This document shows positions 1-63,568 of a stretch of DNA of 64,000 bases, piece after piece; position 1 is the first letter of the stretch, and every line of letters starts with the position of its first letter. This DNA comes from Fidelibacterota bacterium (GTDB lineage Bacteria; Fidelibacterota; Marinisomatia; SCGC-AAA003-L08; JACNLC01), in the NCBI GenBank assembly GCA_014381725.1, contig JACNLC010000045.1, positions 1 to 64,000 on the forward strand, read 5' to 3'. Under the pieces are notes generated by a model. The model saw only the letters and a program-made list of their open reading frames with translations, was not told the origin of the DNA and made no database searches. A program made the translations under genes and the position numbers.

Positions 1-300
1 AATCTGCTCAGAAACAAAGATTTGCGGTTCAGCATCAAGTTCGCTTTCGGAAAATTCTGCCGCAACACAACTTATAGATTGCGAACGCTTTGTCCACATT
101 GGCACAGCAGCAGATTTGAAATAATGATTTCCCTCATAGGCAGTTTCACCGCTTCCAATCCCCCAACAGTTTTGATCGTCGTAACCCCAACCTGACAAAT
201 CTTCAGTTTCTGCTCCTGGATTAGTGAGTAAATTAACCTGAGCATACCCGGTTGCAGCAACAATCAGCAAAATTCCTGTAAAATAATTAAATCTACGCAT
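1..300 (-). CDS. Secreted protein, N-terminal fragment (cut by left edge)
   Basis: The first 100 codons of a gene that continues past the left edge. The start is well supported: an AGGAGG ribosome binding site lies just upstream (about 308-313). The product begins MRRFNYFTGILLIVAATGYA, a clear signal peptide with a likely cut after 'GYA'. It continues with 'NLLTNPGAETEDLSGW', a pattern I know from the start of beta-sandwich carbohydrate-binding-like modules in extracellular proteins. That suggests an exported, possibly surface-anchored protein. The catalytic or sorting part is outside the window, so the function is unknown. A shorter overlapping reading in another frame is a shadow of this gene. 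Confidence 0.8.
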   Translation of the reverse strand, partial: MRRFNYFTGILLIVAATGYAQVNLLTNPGAETEDLSGWGYDDQNCWGIGSGETAYEGNHYFKSAAVPMWTKRSQSISCVAAEFSESELDAEPQIFVSEQI

Positions 301-2408: not shown

Positions 2409-5400
2409 CTACTTCAACAACAACACTTTTTGTGTTCCAACATAATCACTAGCAGTCATTCTAACAAAATACAATCCACTGGGTTGATTATCTGCATTCC
2501 AAGTTACTTGATGATAACCAGCTTCTACTTGACCTGTTACCAAAGTTTCTACCAATTGACCTTGAACATTGTAAACATCTAATCTAACATCGCTATTAAC
2601 TTCTAACTGATAACCAATAACTGTTTTTGGGTTAAATGGATTTGGATATGCTTTTGATAATCCAAATGTTGTAGGTTTCTGTTCTGTTTTAAATAGCACA
2701 GGTTCAAAATCATTGCCTAAATTCGCATTTATCTCAAATGTGACTATATTTGTTAAATCAATTACTTCACCAGATTGAAATGCTTTGAAACTAACTTCAT
2801 CTCCATTTTCACCATAAATCACTAGATTGATTGTATAACTATTTGTAAGTGGGAAGTGTGTAGCTTTTGAAACTCCTCTTACCTCATCACCTACAAATGC
2901 AACTAATTCATCAAATTCGTTAGTTTCTTCAAATACTGCAGTTAAAGTCATATTATGCTCAAATTGATGTGGGTTAACGCTCCAATGGAGTTCAATAACT
3001 TCATTGTCAATTCTAACTAGACCATTAGGAGTTGGGTAAATCAATTCTGCAGGTTCAGACATTTCAAGCATATATCCAATCCCAGGTTCCATAATTGCTA
3101 AACCATACCAACCAAAACCATCGTAATAAGTTGCAAATCCTGTTTGATTCTTAATGATAATTCCATTAGAACCAATTGTTGCTAAAGCTTCATTCAAGTC
3201 ATTTGACTGTTGTGGTAAATATCCAATCCAGTTCCATCCTGCCATAAGATCGATAGGTGTAATAGTAACATCAACGGGATATCCAACAAATGACAATGTA
3301 GCATCTGTTGACATTTGAATCATATACATACTCATCACATCTAACTCATTAAGTCCATACCAACCAAAACCATCGTAATAAGTTGCAAATCCTGTTTGAT
3401 TCTTGATAATAATACCATTAGAACCTAGAGTAGCCAAGACAGTATTCAAACTCATATCTTCCATTTCTACATTAAGCGAGAACCAGTTCCAACCGGCTAA
3501 CTGACTAACAACTTGCTGAACAGTAAGCACAACAACTACAGATTCTGAATTTTCACTTTCATTTCCGTGAATATCTGTTGAAGTTATACAATAAGAAATA
3601 TCTCCTGTAGCAGATACATCAAATTCAGTAAATTGTGATTCGGTAGCATAACCAACTATTTCACCATCTCTAAATATTGAGAAATATTGGAAATCTTCAT
3701 CAGTCGAAGCATCCCAAGATAACATCACAGTATTGCCTTCATTATCTGCAAGAAGTCCTGTTGGAATCGCAGGAGCTATGTTGTCAACTGAAAAACCTTC
3801 GCCAACTTCAGAAATCCATATACCCTCTTCGAGCGAAGCTATCACTCTAAATTGTGTAATAGCATCTTCTGTTTCTGTAGCATCTTGGAGAGTTGTAACT
3901 TCAGCAACATATAGATCTTGCCCGTAAGCAACATAAGTCATTACGCCAACCCAACCTTCTTCATCTAATCGCTCGATTGTGTAGTATTCAGTTCTTAGTT
4001 GTTCATCAAAATATGCGGGTTCGAATTTCACATAAACTCGCCCACCTTGATCATTAGGAATATCAACAATCTCAGTGATAACCGGTCTAAGTTCAAGAAC
4101 AACCAAAACAAATTCTGAAAATACTGTATCTTCGCCATCTGAGACTTCAACTGCAAATACAAATACTCCTTCAAAAGGAGCATCACCCGACAACAAATTA
4201 CCATTTAAAGCTAACCATTCAGGTTGATTGACCACGCCAAATGTTAACTCAGGAGAATCTATATCATCAGCTTCTAAAATAATTGATACTGCATCTCCGA
4301 CACCAGCCATAGTCTCCATAGATTCCATTGTGAAAAATGGTAAATCGTTGATCGAATTAATTGTGAGAGTGAGAATTTCCTCATCACTTGCTCCATCCGT
4401 ATCAATTACAGCAACAGTTAGTTCAACTATACCGTTTTGATTATCGAAAACATCAATATTAATTTGAGCTAATTGATCATCAGTTTGTTCGATAGTAATT
4501 TCAGCTATTCCTTCACTTATTGAAGAAACTGTAAAATTAAGTGATTGCTCATTTGTTTCTATATCAATATCGGTTGCAGATATTTCAATAGAGAAATCTA
4601 CATCTTCATCAGTTACTAAATTACCAATTGGATTTAGAACAGGTGTATCATTAACAGATTCAACAATTACTTCAACATCGTCGGATGCGATTGCTCTTCC
4701 TTGATTATCGTTTACAGTAAAGGTTAGTACTTCTGTTCCGAACCAGTTATCTGGACCATTGACAGCAACATTGTATCCATCAATATCAACTGTTAAATTT
4801 GTATTTCCTGAAACTGATAGTGTTAATTCATCACCATCAACATCACTTAGATAATTGGTAAAATCAACATTCAAATTTCCATCCTCTTCAAAAGTAACAA
4901 TATCAGGAAGATTAATTACGGGTGCATCGTTAACTGGATTGACAGTTATTGTTACAATTCCCATCTCTGAATTTACCTCTCCATCGTTAGCAATGTATGT
5001 AAATGTATCTATTCCATTATAATTTTCATTAGGATAGTAAAATCCGTCAGAATACATTCCGTTAAGAGGAGAATCGACTACTGAAAAAGTCAACACATCA
5101 CCATCAACATCAGAACCAGATAATTCAATTGCTAATTCAATATCTTCATTTGTCTCAACTGATACTTCATCTACAACAGGAGTATCGTTTACTGCTAAAA
5201 CACTAACCTCTACATCTGCAGTTACAATATCATAACCATCATCAATGTTAAAAGTGATATTTTCAGAGCCATACCAATTTTCTTGTGTTGTGCTAAATGT
5301 AACTAACATTTCACTAATAACAACAGAAATGTCAGAAAATCCATTAGCAGATAGGGTTAACTCATCTCCGTCAGCATCACCAACATAATCTCCAAACTCA

Positions 5401-8400
5401 AATTCAACAGAAGTATCTTCATCAAACGAAATATCAGTTGGTAGTGCAATCCAAGGTAAATCGTTAACAGGAATAACTTCTATTTCAACAGCTGTAGATT
5501 GTGAATAAAGTTCACCGTCAAATACTTTATATGTAAAAACATCTGTTCCAAAGTAATTCAGATTTGGTATATAATTAAAAGAACCATCTTCATTTAGATA
5601 AACCGAACCATTTTCAGCATCATCATCTAAAACTGCAAGCAATGATACATTCATAAATTGCACTGGATCTATATCGTTTCCGTGAATATCATTCGCAACA
5701 AAAGTAACTGAGTAACCAGACATATTATAAACAGCGTCTTCGCTTGCATCATATGCTTTGAAGGTCATTGTTTCACCATTTGTGTTTGCATATAGCATCA
5801 TATTTACGGTAAATCGACCAGAAATGGGGAAATATGATGGAGAAGAAACACCACGCACTTCGTCACCCACAAACGCAGCTAGAATATCGTTTTCATCAGT
5901 TGATTCAATGCCATTAAAAATAATAACACTAGAACAAGTTGCATTAAATTCAAAATCAGGTGGGCTGCAAGTCCAGTCTGGCTCTTCCCTATTATTTATT
6001 AAATCAACATCATAGTCGTTTTCTAAAACACCTGGAGATTCAATATACAATTCAGTATCTTCATTTGTTGAATAAAAATCTGTAACACCATTAGGAGCAT
6101 CATTAACAGGTAACACATCTATCTGAACATTATCACTTACAGCTGTTCTATCAACATTATCATTAACTGTGAAGGTCAAAGTTTCAGATCCATACCAGTT
6201 TTGGTTATTTGTTCCAAAATTTACATACAAACCATCAATATCAACTGAGATATTTGAATTCCCTAAAACTGTTAATATTAATGGATCACCATCTGCATCT
6301 TCAATGAATTCATTGAAATCTACAAATAGAGCATTATCCTCATCAAATGTAAAATTATTTGGTAATAATATTGTAGGAATATCATTAACAGGATTAACCG
6401 TTATTGAAGCTAAAGTAATATCAGAGTAAAGTTCACCATCAAATACTCGATAACTAAAAGTATCAGAGCCAAAATAATTTATTGAAGGTGTATAAACGAA
6501 AGAACCATCGCTATCGAGAATTAAATTACCATTTTGGACATCAGAATATAATTCCACAGATAACGAATAACAATTTAGTTCAATAGGATTCATATCGTTT
6601 CCAATATTATCGTTTGCAGTAAATTCGTAAGAATATCCTCCAACACTATAAACAATATCTTCACTTGAATCATACGCTTTAAATGTCATTGTTTCTCCAT
6701 TTGTGTTAGCATAAATCATCATATTTACTGTAAATCTATCCGTAATCGGGAAATAAGTAGGTTGAGCAACTCCACGACATTCCTCTCCAACAAACACAGC
6801 CAGAATATCATTTTCATCGGCAGATTCCTCACCATCAAATGTTAAAACACTTGTAAATGTAGAATTGAATTCAAAATTAGGTGCGTGAACTGACCAATTC
6901 GGAATTTCTCTTATCAGAAAATCTATATCATAATCATTACCCAACACTCCAGGTGATTCTATTTCTAAGGTAATATCCTCATCTATTTCGTAATAATCAG
7001 ATTCTCCTGTGGGTGCATCATTAACTGGTAAAACATTAATTACAACATCCTCTGTTGTTTCAAATACACCATCAGAGACTATGAATGTAACATCCTCAGA
7101 ACCAAACCAATTTTCTGTAATTGTACCAAATAAGACATCAAACTCATTAACAACAATTGATATTTGAGAATTACCTTCAACAGACAGTGATAATTGATCT
7201 CCATCAACATCTCCAATCAAGTTATTAAAATTTAGATTTAATTCAGTATCTTCATCGAAGTTGATATCAGAAGTAGAAACCCAAGGTGCATCGTTAACTG
7301 GATTAATCACAATTTCAACACTAGCAATTCCGGAATAATCAGTTCCATCAAATGCCCGATAACTGAAAGAATCTGAACCAAAATAATTTAATGAAGGTGT
7401 GTAAACGAAAGAACCATCGCTATCGAGATTTAAATTACCATTTTGGACATCAGAATATAATTCCACAGCTAACGAATAACAATTTAGTTCAATGGGATTC
7501 ATATCGTTTCCAATATTATCGTTTGCAGTAAATTCGTAAGAATATCCTCCAACACTATAAACAATATCTTCACTTGAATCATACGCTTTAAATGTCATTG
7601 TTTCTCCATTTGTGTTAGCATAAATCATCATATTTACTGTAAATCTATCCGTAATCGGGAAATAAGTAGGTTGAGCAACTCCACGACATTCCTCTCCAAC
7701 AAACACAGCCAGAATATCATTTTCATCGGCAGATTCCTCACCATCAAATGTTAAAACACTTGTAAATGTAGAATTGAATTCAAAATTAGGTGCGTGAACT
7801 GACCAATTCGGAATTTCTCTGATTAAAAAATCAACATCAAAGTCATTTTCTAAAACACCAGGAGATACAACTTGAAAATAATTATCCTCGTCTATTTCAA
7901 AAAAGTCATCTTCTGCAACAGGAGGGTCATTCACAGGAAGGACATTAACAATTATAATTTCTGAAGTTTCATCAATCCCATCAGAAACTGTAAAAGTTAC
8001 ATCCTCAGAACCAAACCAATTTTCTGTAATTGTACCAAATAAGACATCAAATTCATTAACGATAATTGATATTTGAGAATTACCTTCAACAGACAGCGAT
8101 AATTGATCTCCATCAACATCTCCAATAAAATCTGTAAAACTTAGATTTAATTCTGTATCTTCATCGAAGTTGATATCAGAAGTAGAAATCCAAGGTGCAT
8201 CGTTAACCGAGTTGATTGTAATATTAACTGAAGCAATATTTGAATAGTCAATTCCATCGAATGCAACATAAGTAAACGAATCTAAGCCATTAAAATTCTC
8301 AATTGGAATGTAATTGAATGAGCCATCAGAATTTAAAGTAAGTTCTCCATATTCTGCATCACTTTCTAGAATAGCTGACATTGTAAAACAGTTCATTTCC

Positions 8401-8918
8401 AAAGGGACCATATCGTTGCCTGACATTTCGTTTGCAGTAAATGTGTAAGAATATCCAGCTACAGAATATACTTTGTCTTCACTTGCATCATACGCTTTAA
8501 ATGTCATTGTTTCTCCATTTGTGTTAGCATAATTCATCAAGTTTACTGTGTATCTACCATTTACTGGAAAAAATGTAGGTTGAGCAACACCTCTGCATTC
8601 TGCACCAACGAATGCTGCTAGAATATCGTTACTATCTACAGATTCCTCACCATCAAAAATTAACACACTAGTCATTGTTGCATTAAATTCGTAGCTTGGA
8701 GGATGAACTGACCAATTCGGAATATCTCTGCCTGGATTCATATCCTCATCATTGTCATTTCCCAAAATACCCGGTGCGCTTACAATAAGTTCGGTATCCT
8801 CCTCAATTACATAAGCATCATCACTTGCCACAGGTGCATAATTTCGCACTCCAGCTCCAAATAACTGACTAAGCGTAATTCCAAAAACCGCTATTATTAA
8901 AACCCATTTATTTTTCAT
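2409..8918 (-). CDS. Giant secreted multi-domain surface protein with type IX-like sorting domain
   Basis: 2169 residues. A signal peptide (MKNKWVLIIAVFGITLSQLFG) is followed by four tandem super-repeats of about 303 residues (roughly 30-1250). Each has a Big_9-type Ig/cadherin-like domain interrupted by a module of about 110 residues ('WSVHPPSYEFNATMTSV...FVGAECRGVAQPT'), then a second cadherin-like domain with 'DVDGD' calcium-type loops. More cadherin-like domains without the module follow (about 1250-1700), then an FN3-like domain (about 1716-1796), two 'GWNW' repeats (about 1806-1962), a free copy of the module (about 1978-2080) and a C-terminal sorting domain beginning 'KAYPNPFNPKTVIGYQL'. 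A strong AAGGAG precedes the ATG. It is likely a calcium-stabilised adhesin or stalk exported by a type IX-like system. No catalytic domain is seen. Confidence 0.9.
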   Translation of the reverse strand: MKNKWVLIIAVFGITLSQLFGAGVRNYAPVASDDAYVIEEDTELIVSAPGILGNDNDEDMNPGRDIPNWSVHPPSYEFNATMTSVLIFDGEESVDSNDILAAFVGAECRGVAQPTFFPVNGRYTVNLMNYANTNGETMTFKAYDASEDKVYSVAGYSYTFTANEMSGNDMVPLEMNCFTMSAILESDAEYGELTLNSDGSFNYIPIENFNGLDSFTYVAFDGIDYSNIASVNITINSVNDAPWISTSDINFDEDTELNLSFTDFIGDVDGDQLSLSVEGNSQISIIVNEFDVLFGTITENWFGSEDVTFTVSDGIDETSEIIIVNVLPVNDPPVAEDDFFEIDEDNYFQVVSPGVLENDFDVDFLIREIPNWSVHAPNFEFNSTFTSVLTFDGEESADENDILAVFVGEECRGVAQPTYFPITDRFTVNMMIYANTNGETMTFKAYDSSEDIVYSVGGYSYEFTANDNIGNDMNPIELNCYSLAVELYSDVQNGNLNLDSDGSFVYTPSLNYFGSDSFSYRAFDGTDYSGIASVEIVINPVNDAPWVSTSDINFDEDTELNLNFNNLIGDVDGDQLSLSVEGNSQISIVVNEFDVLFGTITENWFGSEDVTFIVSDGVFETTEDVVINVLPVNDAPTGESDYYEIDEDITLEIESPGVLGNDYDIDFLIREIPNWSVHAPNFEFNSTFTSVLTFDGEESADENDILAVFVGEECRGVAQPTYFPITDRFTVNMMIYANTNGETMTFKAYDSSEDIVYSVGGYSYEFTANDNIGNDMNPIELNCYSLSVELYSDVQNGNLILDSDGSFVYTPSINYFGSDTFSYRVFDGELYSDITLASITVNPVNDIPTILLPNNFTFDEDNALFVDFNEFIEDADGDPLILTVLGNSNISVDIDGLYVNFGTNNQNWYGSETLTFTVNDNVDRTAVSDNVQIDVLPVNDAPNGVTDFYSTNEDTELYIESPGVLENDYDVDLINNREEPDWTCSPPDFEFNATCSSVIIFNGIESTDENDILAAFVGDEVRGVSSPSYFPISGRFTVNMMLYANTNGETMTFKAYDASEDAVYNMSGYSVTFVANDIHGNDIDPVQFMNVSLLAVLDDDAENGSVYLNEDGSFNYIPNLNYFGTDVFTYKVFDGELYSQSTAVEIEVIPVNDLPWIALPTDISFDEDTSVEFEFGDYVGDADGDELTLSANGFSDISVVISEMLVTFSTTQENWYGSENITFNIDDGYDIVTADVEVSVLAVNDTPVVDEVSVETNEDIELAIELSGSDVDGDVLTFSVVDSPLNGMYSDGFYYPNENYNGIDTFTYIANDGEVNSEMGIVTITVNPVNDAPVINLPDIVTFEEDGNLNVDFTNYLSDVDGDELTLSVSGNTNLTVDIDGYNVAVNGPDNWFGTEVLTFTVNDNQGRAIASDDVEVIVESVNDTPVLNPIGNLVTDEDVDFSIEISATDIDIETNEQSLNFTVSSISEGIAEITIEQTDDQLAQINIDVFDNQNGIVELTVAVIDTDGASDEEILTLTINSINDLPFFTMESMETMAGVGDAVSIILEADDIDSPELTFGVVNQPEWLALNGNLLSGDAPFEGVFVFAVEVSDGEDTVFSEFVLVVLELRPVITEIVDIPNDQGGRVYVKFEPAYFDEQLRTEYYTIERLDEEGWVGVMTYVAYGQDLYVAEVTTLQDATETEDAITQFRVIASLEEGIWISEVGEGFSVDNIAPAIPTGLLADNEGNTVMLSWDASTDEDFQYFSIFRDGEIVGYATESQFTEFDVSATGDISYCITSTDIHGNESENSESVVVVLTVQQVVSQLAGWNWFSLNVEMEDMSLNTVLATLGSNGIIIKNQTGFATYYDGFGWYGLNELDVMSMYMIQMSTDATLSFVGYPVDVTITPIDLMAGWNWIGYLPQQSNDLNEALATIGSNGIIIKNQTGFATYYDGFGWYGLAIMEPGIGYMLEMSEPAELIYPTPNGLVRIDNEVIELHWSVNPHQFEHNMTLTAVFEETNEFDELVAFVGDEVRGVSKATHFPLTNSYTINLVIYGENGDEVSFKAFQSGEVIDLTNIVTFEINANLGNDFEPVLFKTEQKPTTFGLSKAYPNPFNPKTVIGYQLEVNSDVRLDVYNVQGQLVETLVTGQVEAGYHQVTWNADNQPSGLYFVRMTASDYVGTQKVLLLK
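6469..6911. repeat. Internal near-identical repeat, copy 2
   Basis: Matches 7378-7820 at a fixed offset of 909 bases (303 codons). I counted five differences in 443 bases and none between 6586 and 6911. It encodes the inserted module and flanking Ig-like strands of the giant protein. Confidence 0.9.
7378..7820. repeat. Internal near-identical repeat, copy 1
   Basis: Partner of 6469-6911. The offset is exactly 303 codons, so duplication or conversion keeps the reading frame. The first (about 8390-8720) and fourth (about 5640-5980) units of the same series are clearly diverged. Confidence 0.9.
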
Positions 8919-15136: not shown

Positions 15137-15895
15137 TCACTGTCTATAAAGTGTCATTATTCTCATTTTCTCAAAATCATCTGTTTTCATTTTTAAGAAG
15201 TACATTCCGTTTGGCATAGTTCTACCGTACTGGTCAATACCATCCCACACTACACTGTAAGACCCTTTGTCAATAAAATCGTCAACTAATGTTGTTACTT
15301 CGTTTCCATCATCATCAAGAATTGTTATTTTTACCATTCCAGAAGTAGAAATTGTGTAATCAATCTGAGTAGAATAGTCAAATGGATTTGGATAATTTTG
15401 ATACAACTCAGTTCTAAAATCTGAAAACAGATCTGTTTGATAAGTAACTGGGATATTTATTTCAAAACTAGGAGTAGTTATTTCAGTTTCTAAACCTTCT
15501 CCATGTTGCCCTGCAATTATAGTTTCAGTAAAAGAAACTAAACTTACTCCAGTAAAACTATCAATTCCGGAGAATTTAGCATTAACAATATTTGCAGTAT
15601 TTTCACCAGATAAAAGTTCAATCCCCTTCAAACTGAAAATAAATCCGTTGATAGTTCCTTTTTTTTCTTCTACAAATTCAAAAGTAAATCCGTCAATTAA
15701 AGGAGACATTTCATCTAACATAATTTCATTTGGATTATATCTAATTTGAAATTGAACACCATAAATATCATATTCTGAATCAATAATTAAATTTACTGAA
15801 GATTGATCATCTACTTTTTGGAAGAATCCTATTGTACTTTCTTCAGCAAAAAGAAATGATAATCCAAACAACAACCCTATAACGCTCTTTTTAAT
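15137..15895 (-). CDS. Secreted cohesin-like protein with type IX-like C-terminal domain, apparent AUU start
   Basis: The mature part has a cohesin-like beta-sandwich ('GVQFQIRYNPNEIML', about residues 40-145). A C-terminal sorting/FlgD-like domain follows ('LYQNYPNPFDYSTQIDYTIS ... GMYFLKMKTDD'). Read from the first in-frame TTG (15874) the signal peptide would lack its basic start. Upstream in frame the codons are TAG (stop), ATT, ATT, then AAA AAG AGC. This gives (M)KKSVIGLLFGLSFLFA, a textbook signal peptide, if ATT at 15895 is the start. AGGAGG lies 7 bases before that ATT. I therefore annotate a rare AUU start (252 residues). A base-call error (ATG to ATT) is the alternative. It is probably a surface-attached binding protein. 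Confidence 0.8.
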   Translation of the reverse strand: MKKSVIGLLFGLSFLFAEESTIGFFQKVDDQSSVNLIIDSEYDIYGVQFQIRYNPNEIMLDEMSPLIDGFTFEFVEEKKGTINGFIFSLKGIELLSGENTANIVNAKFSGIDSFTGVSLVSFTETIIAGQHGEGLETEITTPSFEINIPVTYQTDLFSDFRTELYQNYPNPFDYSTQIDYTISTSGMVKITILDDDGNEVTTLVDDFIDKGSYSVVWDGIDQYGRTMPNGMYFLKMKTDDFEKMRIMTLYRQ

Positions 15896-60941: not shown

Positions 60942-63568
60942 CTAATTACAACCACTTTAACCAATATGGCTTCTCCGTTATTTGGGTTCACTTCAGCGAA
61001 GTATAATCCCGAATCAAATTTTTCAGCATTCCATCTAATCTCATTGTATTCGTGAGGAGTTAATCCACTTTGAGATAATTCGTCAACTTTAAATCCAGTA
61101 GCATCATAAATTGTAATTTTAACAGATGATGCTTCACCAAAATAGTAGCGGAAAGTGGTTTCTCCATCCATTATTGGATTTGGATAGTTGTATGCTATAA
61201 TTTGGTTTTGGCTCGATTGTGAGCTAGGTTCAAAATGTTTGCCCGTAACCAACGGATAATTTGATGGACGACTATGCTGATTCAACCAATAATTGTGATC
61301 AGAATCCTGTGGAAACAGAAGTAAACGATGACCGTCAACTAATGCCACTAAAGTGTCATTTTCTGTGATTCGCCAATTTGGAACTATACTCAATTCTGCG
61401 GAAGAATAAACTGAAGCAATTTCCATTTCTCGTTGTCCTGCATTAGACAAAATAACTATATCATCATCCTCACGGCAGATAATTTCTGGTTTTTCATCTC
61501 CAAGAATATTTGCAATTAGAGGAGGATGGAACGAAAAATCTCCTTCAACAGGAAATCCATTTGTAAAAGTGCCATTGTAATTTTTGACTTTAATATCAAA
61601 ATCGGTTGTTCTAGTGATAATTTCATCAAGGCCATCGCCATCAATGTCGCCCAATGATAACGCACCAACTATTTCTTCCAAATTATCTACTGATTGAACA
61701 TAACCCATTGGGTGGATTGGTTCGTCTTCAAACCAATGACTTTCCCCATTTTCGCCGAACCACCAAAATCCATTACCAGTATCAAGCTTTGTTGTAAAAT
61801 AACCAAGCGAATCTAAAACAAAAACATCTCCACTTACTTCTTGGATAAATTTGTCCATTGTGGTGGATGCAGAATCATATACTGAAAATAAACTGTCGTT
61901 TCTTGTGTAAAATATCTGACCCTTTCCATTATAAACTCCATTACCAATAATTTCCTGTCCTGCTTCTCCCCAGTTTACAACTTCAAATTCTGATGTTATT
62001 GAAAAAATTAAACTCATTGTATCGCCTGCAGAGCTTATATCAGATAATGAAATATAAGTCGATGAACCAGAATTTGAACGAGTATTTGGTCTAGTTATAT
62101 TGTCAAAACGAACATCGTCTTCCGTTGGATTAGAATCAATATAACCGCTATTATTATCATACCACATATCCCAAGTCCAACCAACAGTTGGATCAGCAAA
62201 CAGTGCATAATTTGTGAAACCAATATCAACAGCACCATCTGCTTCTTCTAAGTGTATTTTTCGATTATTCGGATCTTTATTTACTCCATTAGTTATATCA
62301 TTTTCATTTGGTTCAGTAATATGCCAAATCAATAATCCTGAAGTTGGTAATCCATAATCGTAGTTATCAAAACCAATAATAACTGAATCTTCAGAAAATG
62401 ATATACTATCAGAATATTCTATGAATGTGTCAAACCAGTGTCCGAGTTTTTCATCGGAAATCAAATTATCTGACCGAAGTGTTTCTATGTCTTTTTCATT
62501 TACTATCCAATTATTTCGATTTTCAATCAGAAAATACTCATTTTCTGTAATTGGAATTTTATAGATTTTATCTTCTAAATCTCGTGCAATAATATTGATA
62601 GTATCAGAATTTTCAACTTGTAATATTTCAGGTTCTTGCCACCCATTATAAATTCTCGTCCAAGCAGTTGGTGGTGCAGGAATAACTCCATGACCATTAT
62701 TGGAACCGTGATCCATTAACCCGAATATACCTACTCCCGGCTCGCCTGTGTCTGTGTTAAAAAGAGGAGTTAATCCAAAATGATACCCTAATAAAAATGC
62801 GAATGTACCAGTTAAGCCAACTTGATAATCACAATAATCTGTTTCATTCCAAAATATATCCTCAATTGCATCGTAGTAGATATGATTTTGAGTTTCCGGT
62901 AGTAAAAGACCACAATTAATTTCAATTCCATTGACAACAGGTTTATCATTGATTTTTTCTAACATAGTTTCATCTATGTAAGCACTTGGAATATCATAAG
63001 GAGCAGGATCCAAGAACGGATACTCAAAATCTTCTCCAATACCAGCGTGAAATACTACAATCAGAGATTGGCTTGTGATTAGTGTGTCAATTTCTAAATT
63101 TGCTAAATTGACTGCATCTACAAACAACTTACCCAACAATGAATCAGAATCAGCATTTTCGTTTTGTATTGAATTTGGAGAATATGAAGCTAATGGTTTA
63201 GGTAGTGTATAAACTGAATCAATCATATGAAATCCAATACTAACATTTTCATTTGAAACAGAAGAATAATAGTTTGCAACAGCATCTAATTGAGCTTCAA
63301 AATAAAGTCGATTATGTGGAGGTCTGTCAACAAAATATCCATCGCATCGCTCATTTGCTTCTGAATATTCAGTTAGAAATATCCCATTACCACAAGTATT
63401 TAGATCATCAACAACTTCCTCTTGGAATTCCACCATAATTCCAATTAAATGTATATCTGTTTCGTTGTTTGGTTTTGGAGTAGCTTTTTGTAAATTTGAG
63501 TAGAAATTATTACCAAATACAATTTGGAGAAATAAAATAACAAGTAGGATTTGATTAATCTTTAACAT
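60938..63568 (-). CDS. M6-like secreted protein with destroyed zinc site and type IX-like C-terminal domain
   Basis: 876 residues from the ATG at 63568, which gives a signal peptide (MLKINQILLVILFLQIVFG); a start 29 codons earlier puts a Cys/Lys-rich stretch in front of it. The N-terminal half aligns with M6 immune-inhibitor-A-like proteases ('IVVFHAGIGEDFEYPF', 'PGVGIFGLMDHGSNN', 'PPTAWTRIYNGW'). Where HEFGHALGL is expected it reads 'FLLGYHFGL' (258-266), so all three catalytic residues are gone. FG-GAP-like repeats follow ('LGDIDGDGLDEIITR'). The C-terminal sorting domain begins 'NYPNPIMDGETTFRYYF'. It is probably a non-enzymatic surface protein. It is coupled to the protease-barrel gene. 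Confidence 0.87.
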   Translation of the reverse strand: MLKINQILLVILFLQIVFGNNFYSNLQKATPKPNNETDIHLIGIMVEFQEEVVDDLNTCGNGIFLTEYSEANERCDGYFVDRPPHNRLYFEAQLDAVANYYSSVSNENVSIGFHMIDSVYTLPKPLASYSPNSIQNENADSDSLLGKLFVDAVNLANLEIDTLITSQSLIVVFHAGIGEDFEYPFLDPAPYDIPSAYIDETMLEKINDKPVVNGIEINCGLLLPETQNHIYYDAIEDIFWNETDYCDYQVGLTGTFAFLLGYHFGLTPLFNTDTGEPGVGIFGLMDHGSNNGHGVIPAPPTAWTRIYNGWQEPEILQVENSDTINIIARDLEDKIYKIPITENEYFLIENRNNWIVNEKDIETLRSDNLISDEKLGHWFDTFIEYSDSISFSEDSVIIGFDNYDYGLPTSGLLIWHITEPNENDITNGVNKDPNNRKIHLEEADGAVDIGFTNYALFADPTVGWTWDMWYDNNSGYIDSNPTEDDVRFDNITRPNTRSNSGSSTYISLSDISSAGDTMSLIFSITSEFEVVNWGEAGQEIIGNGVYNGKGQIFYTRNDSLFSVYDSASTTMDKFIQEVSGDVFVLDSLGYFTTKLDTGNGFWWFGENGESHWFEDEPIHPMGYVQSVDNLEEIVGALSLGDIDGDGLDEIITRTTDFDIKVKNYNGTFTNGFPVEGDFSFHPPLIANILGDEKPEIICREDDDIVILSNAGQREMEIASVYSSAELSIVPNWRITENDTLVALVDGHRLLLFPQDSDHNYWLNQHSRPSNYPLVTGKHFEPSSQSSQNQIIAYNYPNPIMDGETTFRYYFGEASSVKITIYDATGFKVDELSQSGLTPHEYNEIRWNAEKFDSGLYFAEVNPNNGEAILVKVVVIR

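Follow-up and report, generated by a model that had tools for sequence, protein, structure and literature searches.

The window, the whole analysed stretch of 64,000 nucleotides from a Fidelibacterota bacterium (positions 1 to 64,000 of contig JACNLC010000045.1, assembly GCA_014381725.1), carries at positions 2409-8918, on the minus strand, one open reading frame (ORF) for a predicted surface protein of 2,169 residues, in which a module of roughly 110 residues is inserted into four successive immunoglobulin (Ig)-like domains of the Big_9 family. Nine matches to this protein were obtained from Pfam (Big_9, Cadherin_4/5, FlgD_ig and the Por_Secre_tail sorting domain) and nine from NCBIfam (tandem-95 repeats, NF012211, and the type IX sorting domain), and the module region was covered by no model of either database. 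Both the hosts and a large part of the stalk fall among the Big_9 (PF17963)/tandem-95 repeat (NF012211) proteins. The super-repeats formed by host and module follow one another with a period of 303-306 residues; the four nested modules share 62-100% pairwise identity, and a fifth, free-standing copy is 40-43% identical to them (Table 1).

Insertion into Big_9 and recent copying

Each host is interrupted after 'GVLxNDxDxD' and continues at 'LxxxLxSDxxNGxLxLxxDGSFxYxP'. In the intact stretch of 210-211 residues the Big_9 match started only at profile position 15-24 in all four copies; after excision of the module it spanned positions 3 to 88 or 89 of 89, again in four of four, and the score rose by 2.3 to 9.0 bits (47.1 to 56.1, 52.1 to 60.1, 42.3 to 49.7 and 49.8 to 52.1; cut-off 23.6). 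This restoration of the full-length host bears out an earlier note on this DNA, which had described four Big_9 domains each split by the module, and the same holds for its placing of an uninserted host copy later in the protein (residues 1244-1325) and of a free module (1976-2083) just ahead of the sorting domain (2091-2165). When the flanks (100 residues per side) were joined, a full-length Big_9 spanned the junction at all four Big_9-type loci tried, and no domain spanned it at any of three free-standing control modules. Unlike the four hosts of the window, the later Big_9 copy of the same protein and a Big_9 of similar sequence ('PAPGITENDSDIDEDVLTVILVADVTNGSLQLFGDGSFNYLP') in a Marinimicrobia genome (L113) are empty.

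Nested copies amount to eight in the window's genome, in three genes on contigs C17 (four), C5 (three) and C8 (one), and reading frame and both host halves are preserved in all of them. Units 2 and 3 share a perfect tract of 326 nt, which starts at residue 367, two residues ahead of the module, and their near-identity decays through the downstream host half (about 30 residues) to about residue 516; the upstream host halves differ and lie outside the near-identical tract. The tract comprises the module and part of the host, so that the newest duplication or conversion did not carry the whole super-repeat. In the sister gene L014 (contig C5) a whole unit has been duplicated, with 99.8% identity over 920 nt. 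The view of the earlier note that the nested insertion was copied together with its host is only partly right for copies 2 and 3 of the window protein, in which the module was accompanied by only part of it.

Modules 2 and 3 are similar enough to be confused by short reads, and we considered whether the arrangement was an artefact of the metagenome assembly, that is, a collapsed repeat or a chimera. This was rejected as having next to no likelihood, given that a single open frame of 2,182 codons runs unbroken across all host/module junctions, that the same nesting is found on three contigs, that units 2 and 3 have differing upstream host halves, and that empty host and free module each exist intact.

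Table 1. Features of the surface protein gene and their positions in the window
Feature	Position	Strand	Remarks
Surface protein gene	2409..8918	-	Hydrophobic N-terminal leader (by eye); four split Big_9 plus module units alternating with cadherin-like domains
Surface protein gene, C-terminal part	2409..8918	-	More Ig-like domains, GWxW tandem domain, free module, type IX secretion system (T9SS) sorting domain
Super-repeat 1	8205..8837	-	Big_9 split by module 1
Module 1	8379..8723	-	Residues 66-180
Uninserted cadherin-like domain between units 1 and 2	7929..8204	-	Boundaries by eye from repeat alignment
Super-repeat 2	7296..7925	-	Big_9 split by module 2; stretch used for structure model
Module 2	7470..7814	-	Residues 369-483; same protein sequence as module 3, 344/345 nt
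Super-repeat 3	6387..7016	-	Big_9 split by module 3
Module 3	6561..6905	-	Residues 672-786
Super-repeat 4	5466..6098	-	Big_9 split by module 4
Module 4	5643..5984	-	Residues 979-1092 or 1093
Other uninserted cadherin-like domains	about 7020-7295, 6102-6386, 5187-5465	-	Boundaries by eye from repeat alignment
Uninserted Big_9	4932..5180	-	Empty host form in same protein; residues 1247-1329
Tandem 'GWxW' domain	2994..3503	-	No Pfam match; boundaries by eye
Module 5	2679..2993	-	Free-standing short form, residues 1976-2083; precedes sorting domain
Type IX C-terminal sorting domain (TIGR04183 / PF18962)	2421..2651	-	Residues 2091-2165

The module as a domain family

As an autonomous domain of beta-strands, the module belongs to a family without a name that extends across the Fibrobacterota-Chlorobiota-Bacteroidota (FCB) group and has no Pfam or NCBIfam entry. 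The window's genome holds 36 copies at E <= 0.001, of which 28 stand outside Big_9; the earlier note had allowed that the module might always be found in its host, and this is not the case. Placement classes were assigned by simple motif rules to the 33 distinct own copies, six of which were nested, 14 preceded the sorting motif, seven preceded a GWxW domain, three were N-terminal and three fell elsewhere. Within the phylum Neomarinimicrobiota the module was present in 52 of 245 genomes, including that of the window. An initial scan of genome contigs with the own-genome module alignment returned nine pattern matches and no confirmed one; a scan of GTDB genomes with a tight set of eight modules returned 370 confirmed relatives, and the 80 loci that were kept carry 249 module copies. 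The kept records are labelled Neomarinimicrobiota, Bacteroidetes (Flavobacterium, Prevotella, Bacteroides and Muribaculaceae), Ignavibacteria, Chlorobiota, KSB1 and Candidatus Stygibacter (Cloacimonadota); two further ones, labelled Alphaproteobacteria and Desulfobacteraceae, may be mis-binned.

Against Pfam, 32 own-genome modules gave stray matches only (best E 0.027) and 55 FCB modules none but two single weak ones (TDH, E 0.0038; Ig_TMM62, E 0.0044); the same 55 modules had no match in NCBIfam, and neither of two proteins had one in PHROGs. Kinship with thermostable direct hemolysin was considered and dropped as not significant, the Pfam value being confined to one of 59 rows and the PDB value being 0.1. 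Viral records include contig IMGVR_UViG_3300033064_001947 (L161:3863-4357, +), where a free ORF of about 144-164 residues is the module alone, and the 136-residue marine-virus protein model A0A0F7L4H0 of BFVD, which aligns with the window model across 113 columns (E 3.1e-9); a tblastn search of INPHARED phage records with module 2 gave no match. The ORF adjoining the module ORF of L161 resembles, by eye, a tail fibre.

It should be added that four to six diverged modules follow one another almost directly within ORFs of Prevotella, Muribaculaceae and Bacteroidaceae records (L124, L133, L135, L139 and L141), and that the Candidatus Stygibacter genome of L136 (G245) has 38 module matches in 2.4 Mb, about as many as the window's genome. 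A diverged domain of L014, around ORF residues 700-850 and 1090-1230 ('MNLYAFSATLDGLNLTSEDEIGIFDGDYCVGAG...ITFKLWDASE'), appears by eye to be remotely related to the module; in L136 and L182, comparable domains stand before PKD domains.

Probable type IX export

The C-terminal sorting domain scored 33.6 bits with PF18962 (cut-off 27) and 37.1 bits with TIGR04183 (cut-off 23). SprA, the one translocon component searched for, was detected as SprA_N above cut-off in a 2,175-codon ORF on contig C75, and the genome contains 61 sorting-domain matches. Together, these sequence matches support the surface protein as a probable type IX secretion substrate. No repeats-in-toxin (RTX) family was present among the nine Pfam and nine NCBIfam matches, and the C-terminus carries the T9SS sorting domain rather than a type I adhesin signature.

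The abundance of modules near sorting domains raises the possibility that the module is part of a cassette (module - GWxW domain - module - sorting domain) for export by type IX or for anchoring, its nested copies being by-products of that abundance. By the motif rules given above, a sorting motif is no more than about 60 residues away from 14 of the 33 distinct own copies and from 53 of the 268 others, and a GWxW domain follows seven of 33 and 66 of 268, respectively. Nevertheless, we consider this explanation improbable: the nested modules are far from the sorting domain, the 253-residue own ORF L022 carries the module without a sorting domain, the module of the viral contig stands alone, and, by contig position, no more than about 17 of the genome's 61 sorting-domain matches sit in ORFs with a listed module.

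Recurrent nesting in different hosts

Nesting of the module was found in three host types. For the Big_9 form (type A), a search of the 245 genomes with the composite of host and module gave, among the matches listed, whole-composite coverage only in the window's genome (eight); those listed elsewhere covered either the Ig part or the module together with a short piece of flank. One more, in G024 (35-210), comprises the module and the following Ig stretch without the upstream host half.

The second host (type B) is a different cadherin-like Ig domain, 'IPDQTIGxGGSFxxxxLDxYLTExDGDxIxWSY...[module]...LxAGxLxVxI...WxGSExIxF', in which the insertion point is one strand later than in Big_9. Three nested modules alternate here with uninserted copies of the same domain at about 310 residues. 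The composite search returned 28 full-length matches, which are spread over 13 of the 245 genomes and absent from that of the window, and some type B loci and genomes are the same metagenome-assembled genomes (e.g. L084/G179, L118/G180), so that these counts are not independent. Type B nesting also occurs in L078, a record labelled Bacteroidetes.

In Candidatus Stygibacter (type C) the module stands within a PKD domain, after 'SYDPDG', and the joined flanks of the one locus searched match K319L-like_PKD (PF22352) over 1-84 of 84 positions. This is another host family in another lineage, and the window holds no nested PKD form. Across the phylum Cloacimonadota the composite gave 14 strong matches to host plus insert (E <= 4.7e-68) in four of 124 genomes, and a few weaker ones covering parts of host and insert (e.g. 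G299, G322 and G268). An empty PKD domain gives a pair of matches, to query 22-58 and to query 187-245, separated by three bases, as in G305:C21:2829-2939 and 2943-3119.

The final module tree was calculated from 121 modules and 108 columns with a short search, after removal of ten 'other' rows (three for long branches or odd placing, seven from L133, L135, L139, L141 and L145). Type A modules grouped with five free modules of the window's genome (Shimodaira-Hasegawa-like approximate likelihood ratio, SH-aLRT, 97) and type C modules with free Cloacimonadota modules (SH-aLRT 93). Type B modules formed one split (SH-aLRT 76; 93 when the free modules at the N-termini of these proteins and two others are included). 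An earlier tree of 107 rows gave the same picture for types A and B. In approximately unbiased (AU) tests, of groups named before the tests and after the first tree was seen, a single clade of A and C was rejected (p-AU 1.8e-6), as was one of A and B (p-AU 2.9e-4). L014 and L016 suggest homogenisation between module sites within one gene, which could draw nested modules toward local free ones; hosts and insertion sites are therefore the stronger argument for separate origins. Taken together, host identity, insertion site and module trees indicate that nesting probably arose separately in Big_9, cadherin-like Ig and PKD domains.

A module entry resembling 'R-[DE]-x-P-x-W' is shared by most type A copies (window 5466-8837) and many Cloacimonadota copies (L170-L178), nested and free, although the trees separate these two groups.

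Such recurrence might also be the result of neutral domain shuffling, in which a permissive loop receives the common module by recombination at acidic DxDG turns and tandem duplication, unselected for display, adds further copies. A DxDG-like turn indeed precedes the insertion in both Big_9 and PKD hosts, module copies appear to undergo homogenisation between sites, and nested and free modules of one gene are close kin. On the other hand, the intact frames and host halves of all eight own copies, the retention of the module by three different hosts and the maintenance of type B across 13 genomes of the phylum speak against it, and we find it very improbable.

Predicted structures of the split units

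AlphaFold2 models were made of composites of host and module for the type B unit and the window unit. The type B model, from 17 rows that were all nested units, reached a predicted local distance difference test (pLDDT) value of 93.3 and a predicted template modelling (pTM) score of 0.83; its host matched single cadherin-type domains of the PDB over model residues 1..213 with 81-97 residues aligned and the insert skipped, the best being the SraP cadherin-like domain 4m00 (Z 10.1, root-mean-square deviation (rmsd) 2.1, 88 aligned). For the window unit, alignment A7 consisted of 59 rows (four nested and 55 module-only); five uninserted host rows were dropped from the composite alignment, because MAFFT placed them on the module. 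This model (pLDDT 84.8, pTM 0.70; module mostly above 90) had as its best host match 8fxr, an Ig domain from a phage collar (Z 10.2, rmsd 2.2, 77 residues aligned within 2..210). Across both models the host matches were mostly single known cadherin-type domains running from about residue 1 to 210/213, with only 72-97 residues aligned. The predictions support a discontinuous host Ig fold that would close around an autonomous insert in two host types; the one continuous domain that the earlier note had named as a contrary outcome was not what they showed.

The window host was also aligned to Vibrio cholerae FrhA 9ybq and the M. primoryensis adhesin 6x5w (Z 8.2 for both, rmsd 2.4 and 2.5, 81 and 83 residues aligned, 28 and 30% identity, respectively), whose matched chain residues are likewise spread over about 310 residues. 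The titles of both entries name a peptide-binding domain, and that of 9ybq adds 'adjacent split domain'. At the sequence level, the excised-host profile matched PDB sequences of these adhesins by its downstream half only (9y9w/9ybq, E 0.0084; 6x5v, E 0.65, weak), the matches to the 9ybq and 6x5w chains starting at position 49-51, downstream of the window's junction; the match to the RTX protein 36gk extended along most of its length (E 8.6e-6). With Foldseek by itself, no PDB entry matched a whole model convincingly. Naming of the module fold from 8qox, the single row of 50 that reached the module alone (Z 6.5, rmsd 3.2, 86 aligned), was rejected as too weak.

The module as a candidate binding head

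We propose, with a probability of about 0.6, that the module is a ligand-binding head that projects sideways from a type IX-secreted stalk of split Ig domains. The module would have been grafted into a loop of a Big_9 Ig domain, each split domain closing around it, and the stalk, in which split and intact Ig domains alternate, would be exported by the type IX route and attached to the cell surface. Four heads would then project from it about two Ig domains apart; they would most likely bind a ligand, as do the inserts of RTX split domains, and their repetition would give avidity. Display of the heads is supported by the structural models; from this we infer their sideways projection as a putative working arrangement, with probable attachment to the cell surface. 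The binding function is putative: it is proposed because the RTX analogues bind and because three hosts keep the module in a loop. Between the two roles that the earlier note had offered, ligand binding or spacer, the RTX precedent favours the former by analogy.

In the available text of two reports (PMC12077191, PMC10865825), ligand-binding domains of RTX adhesins were recognised by their emergence from split domains, and the inserts studied there are binders. By arrangement, such split Ig domains of RTX adhesins are the nearest analogues with solved structures. The split domains of FrhA, MpIBP and Aeromonas hydrophila AhLap resemble those predicted for the window protein in that an Ig-like stalk domain is interrupted by, and closes around, an autonomous domain. 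However, the RTX adhesins are gammaproteobacterial and type I-secreted, whereas the window protein belongs to the FCB group and the type IX pathway; the module has no recognised relation to the RTX inserts (peptide-binding, sugar-binding, RTX and vWFA); and it is repeated in four successive split domains, unlike the three AhLap inserts described in the text available of PMC12077191, each of which differs. A literature search in a limited library found no split domain in a type IX-secreted or FCB protein.

Several results weigh against the proposed binding head. The module occurs no less often in other positions (pre-sorting, pre-GWxW and N-terminal), which fits a generic building block equally well; no significant module match was found among PDB sequences (best E 0.1), and no known binding domain was recognised. 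The fold searches were filled by host matches, the Z of 8.2 to the RTX split domains is modest, and the upstream host half of the window model is weak, with residues 22-34 under pLDDT 50. Furthermore, joined flanks of type B loci gave a Pfam family match in none of two.

The main rival is a structural branch or spacer without ligand, which would stiffen, widen or cross-link the stalk, e.g. by module-module pairing between neighbouring fibres. In two unrelated host types the module alternates regularly with intact Ig domains, with a period of about 303-310 residues, which agrees with such a role, as do the direct tandems of two modules and the small number of conserved module positions, which are partly core-like (W, F, RG, F, G). 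Insertion into a loop would, however, be unnecessary for a spacer, for which end-to-end addition would suffice, as in the free modules of the same genome, and the split-domain inserts studied in RTX adhesins are, in the portions of the reports cited above, binders. We therefore regard a spacer as unlikely, if still deserving attention.

The binding-head reading may be extended, tentatively and at somewhat less than even odds, to the whole family: the modules would be un-named, FCB-wide ligand-recognition heads inserted independently at least three times, into Big_9, cadherin-like Ig and PKD domains, and serial split-domain adhesins would be a general convergent design of bacteria with type IX secretion. 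Split domains were the criterion by which the binding domains of RTX adhesins were found, and the same arrangement with a new insert, serial and separate in several hosts, would extend this criterion to FCB bacteria with type IX secretion, among them uncultured lineages from the sea and the gut. A widespread domain without a Pfam or NCBIfam entry thereby becomes a candidate binding head, with exact boundaries for expression now given.

Other features of the window

The GWxW domain is a second un-named building block of the C-terminal cassette. It reads 'GWNWFS...GWNWIGY', and in many FCB proteins it stands between two modules ahead of the sorting domain. At 15170-15394 and 60947-61186 (-) the window contains two more type IX sorting domains, whose open frames have about 253 and 906 codons.

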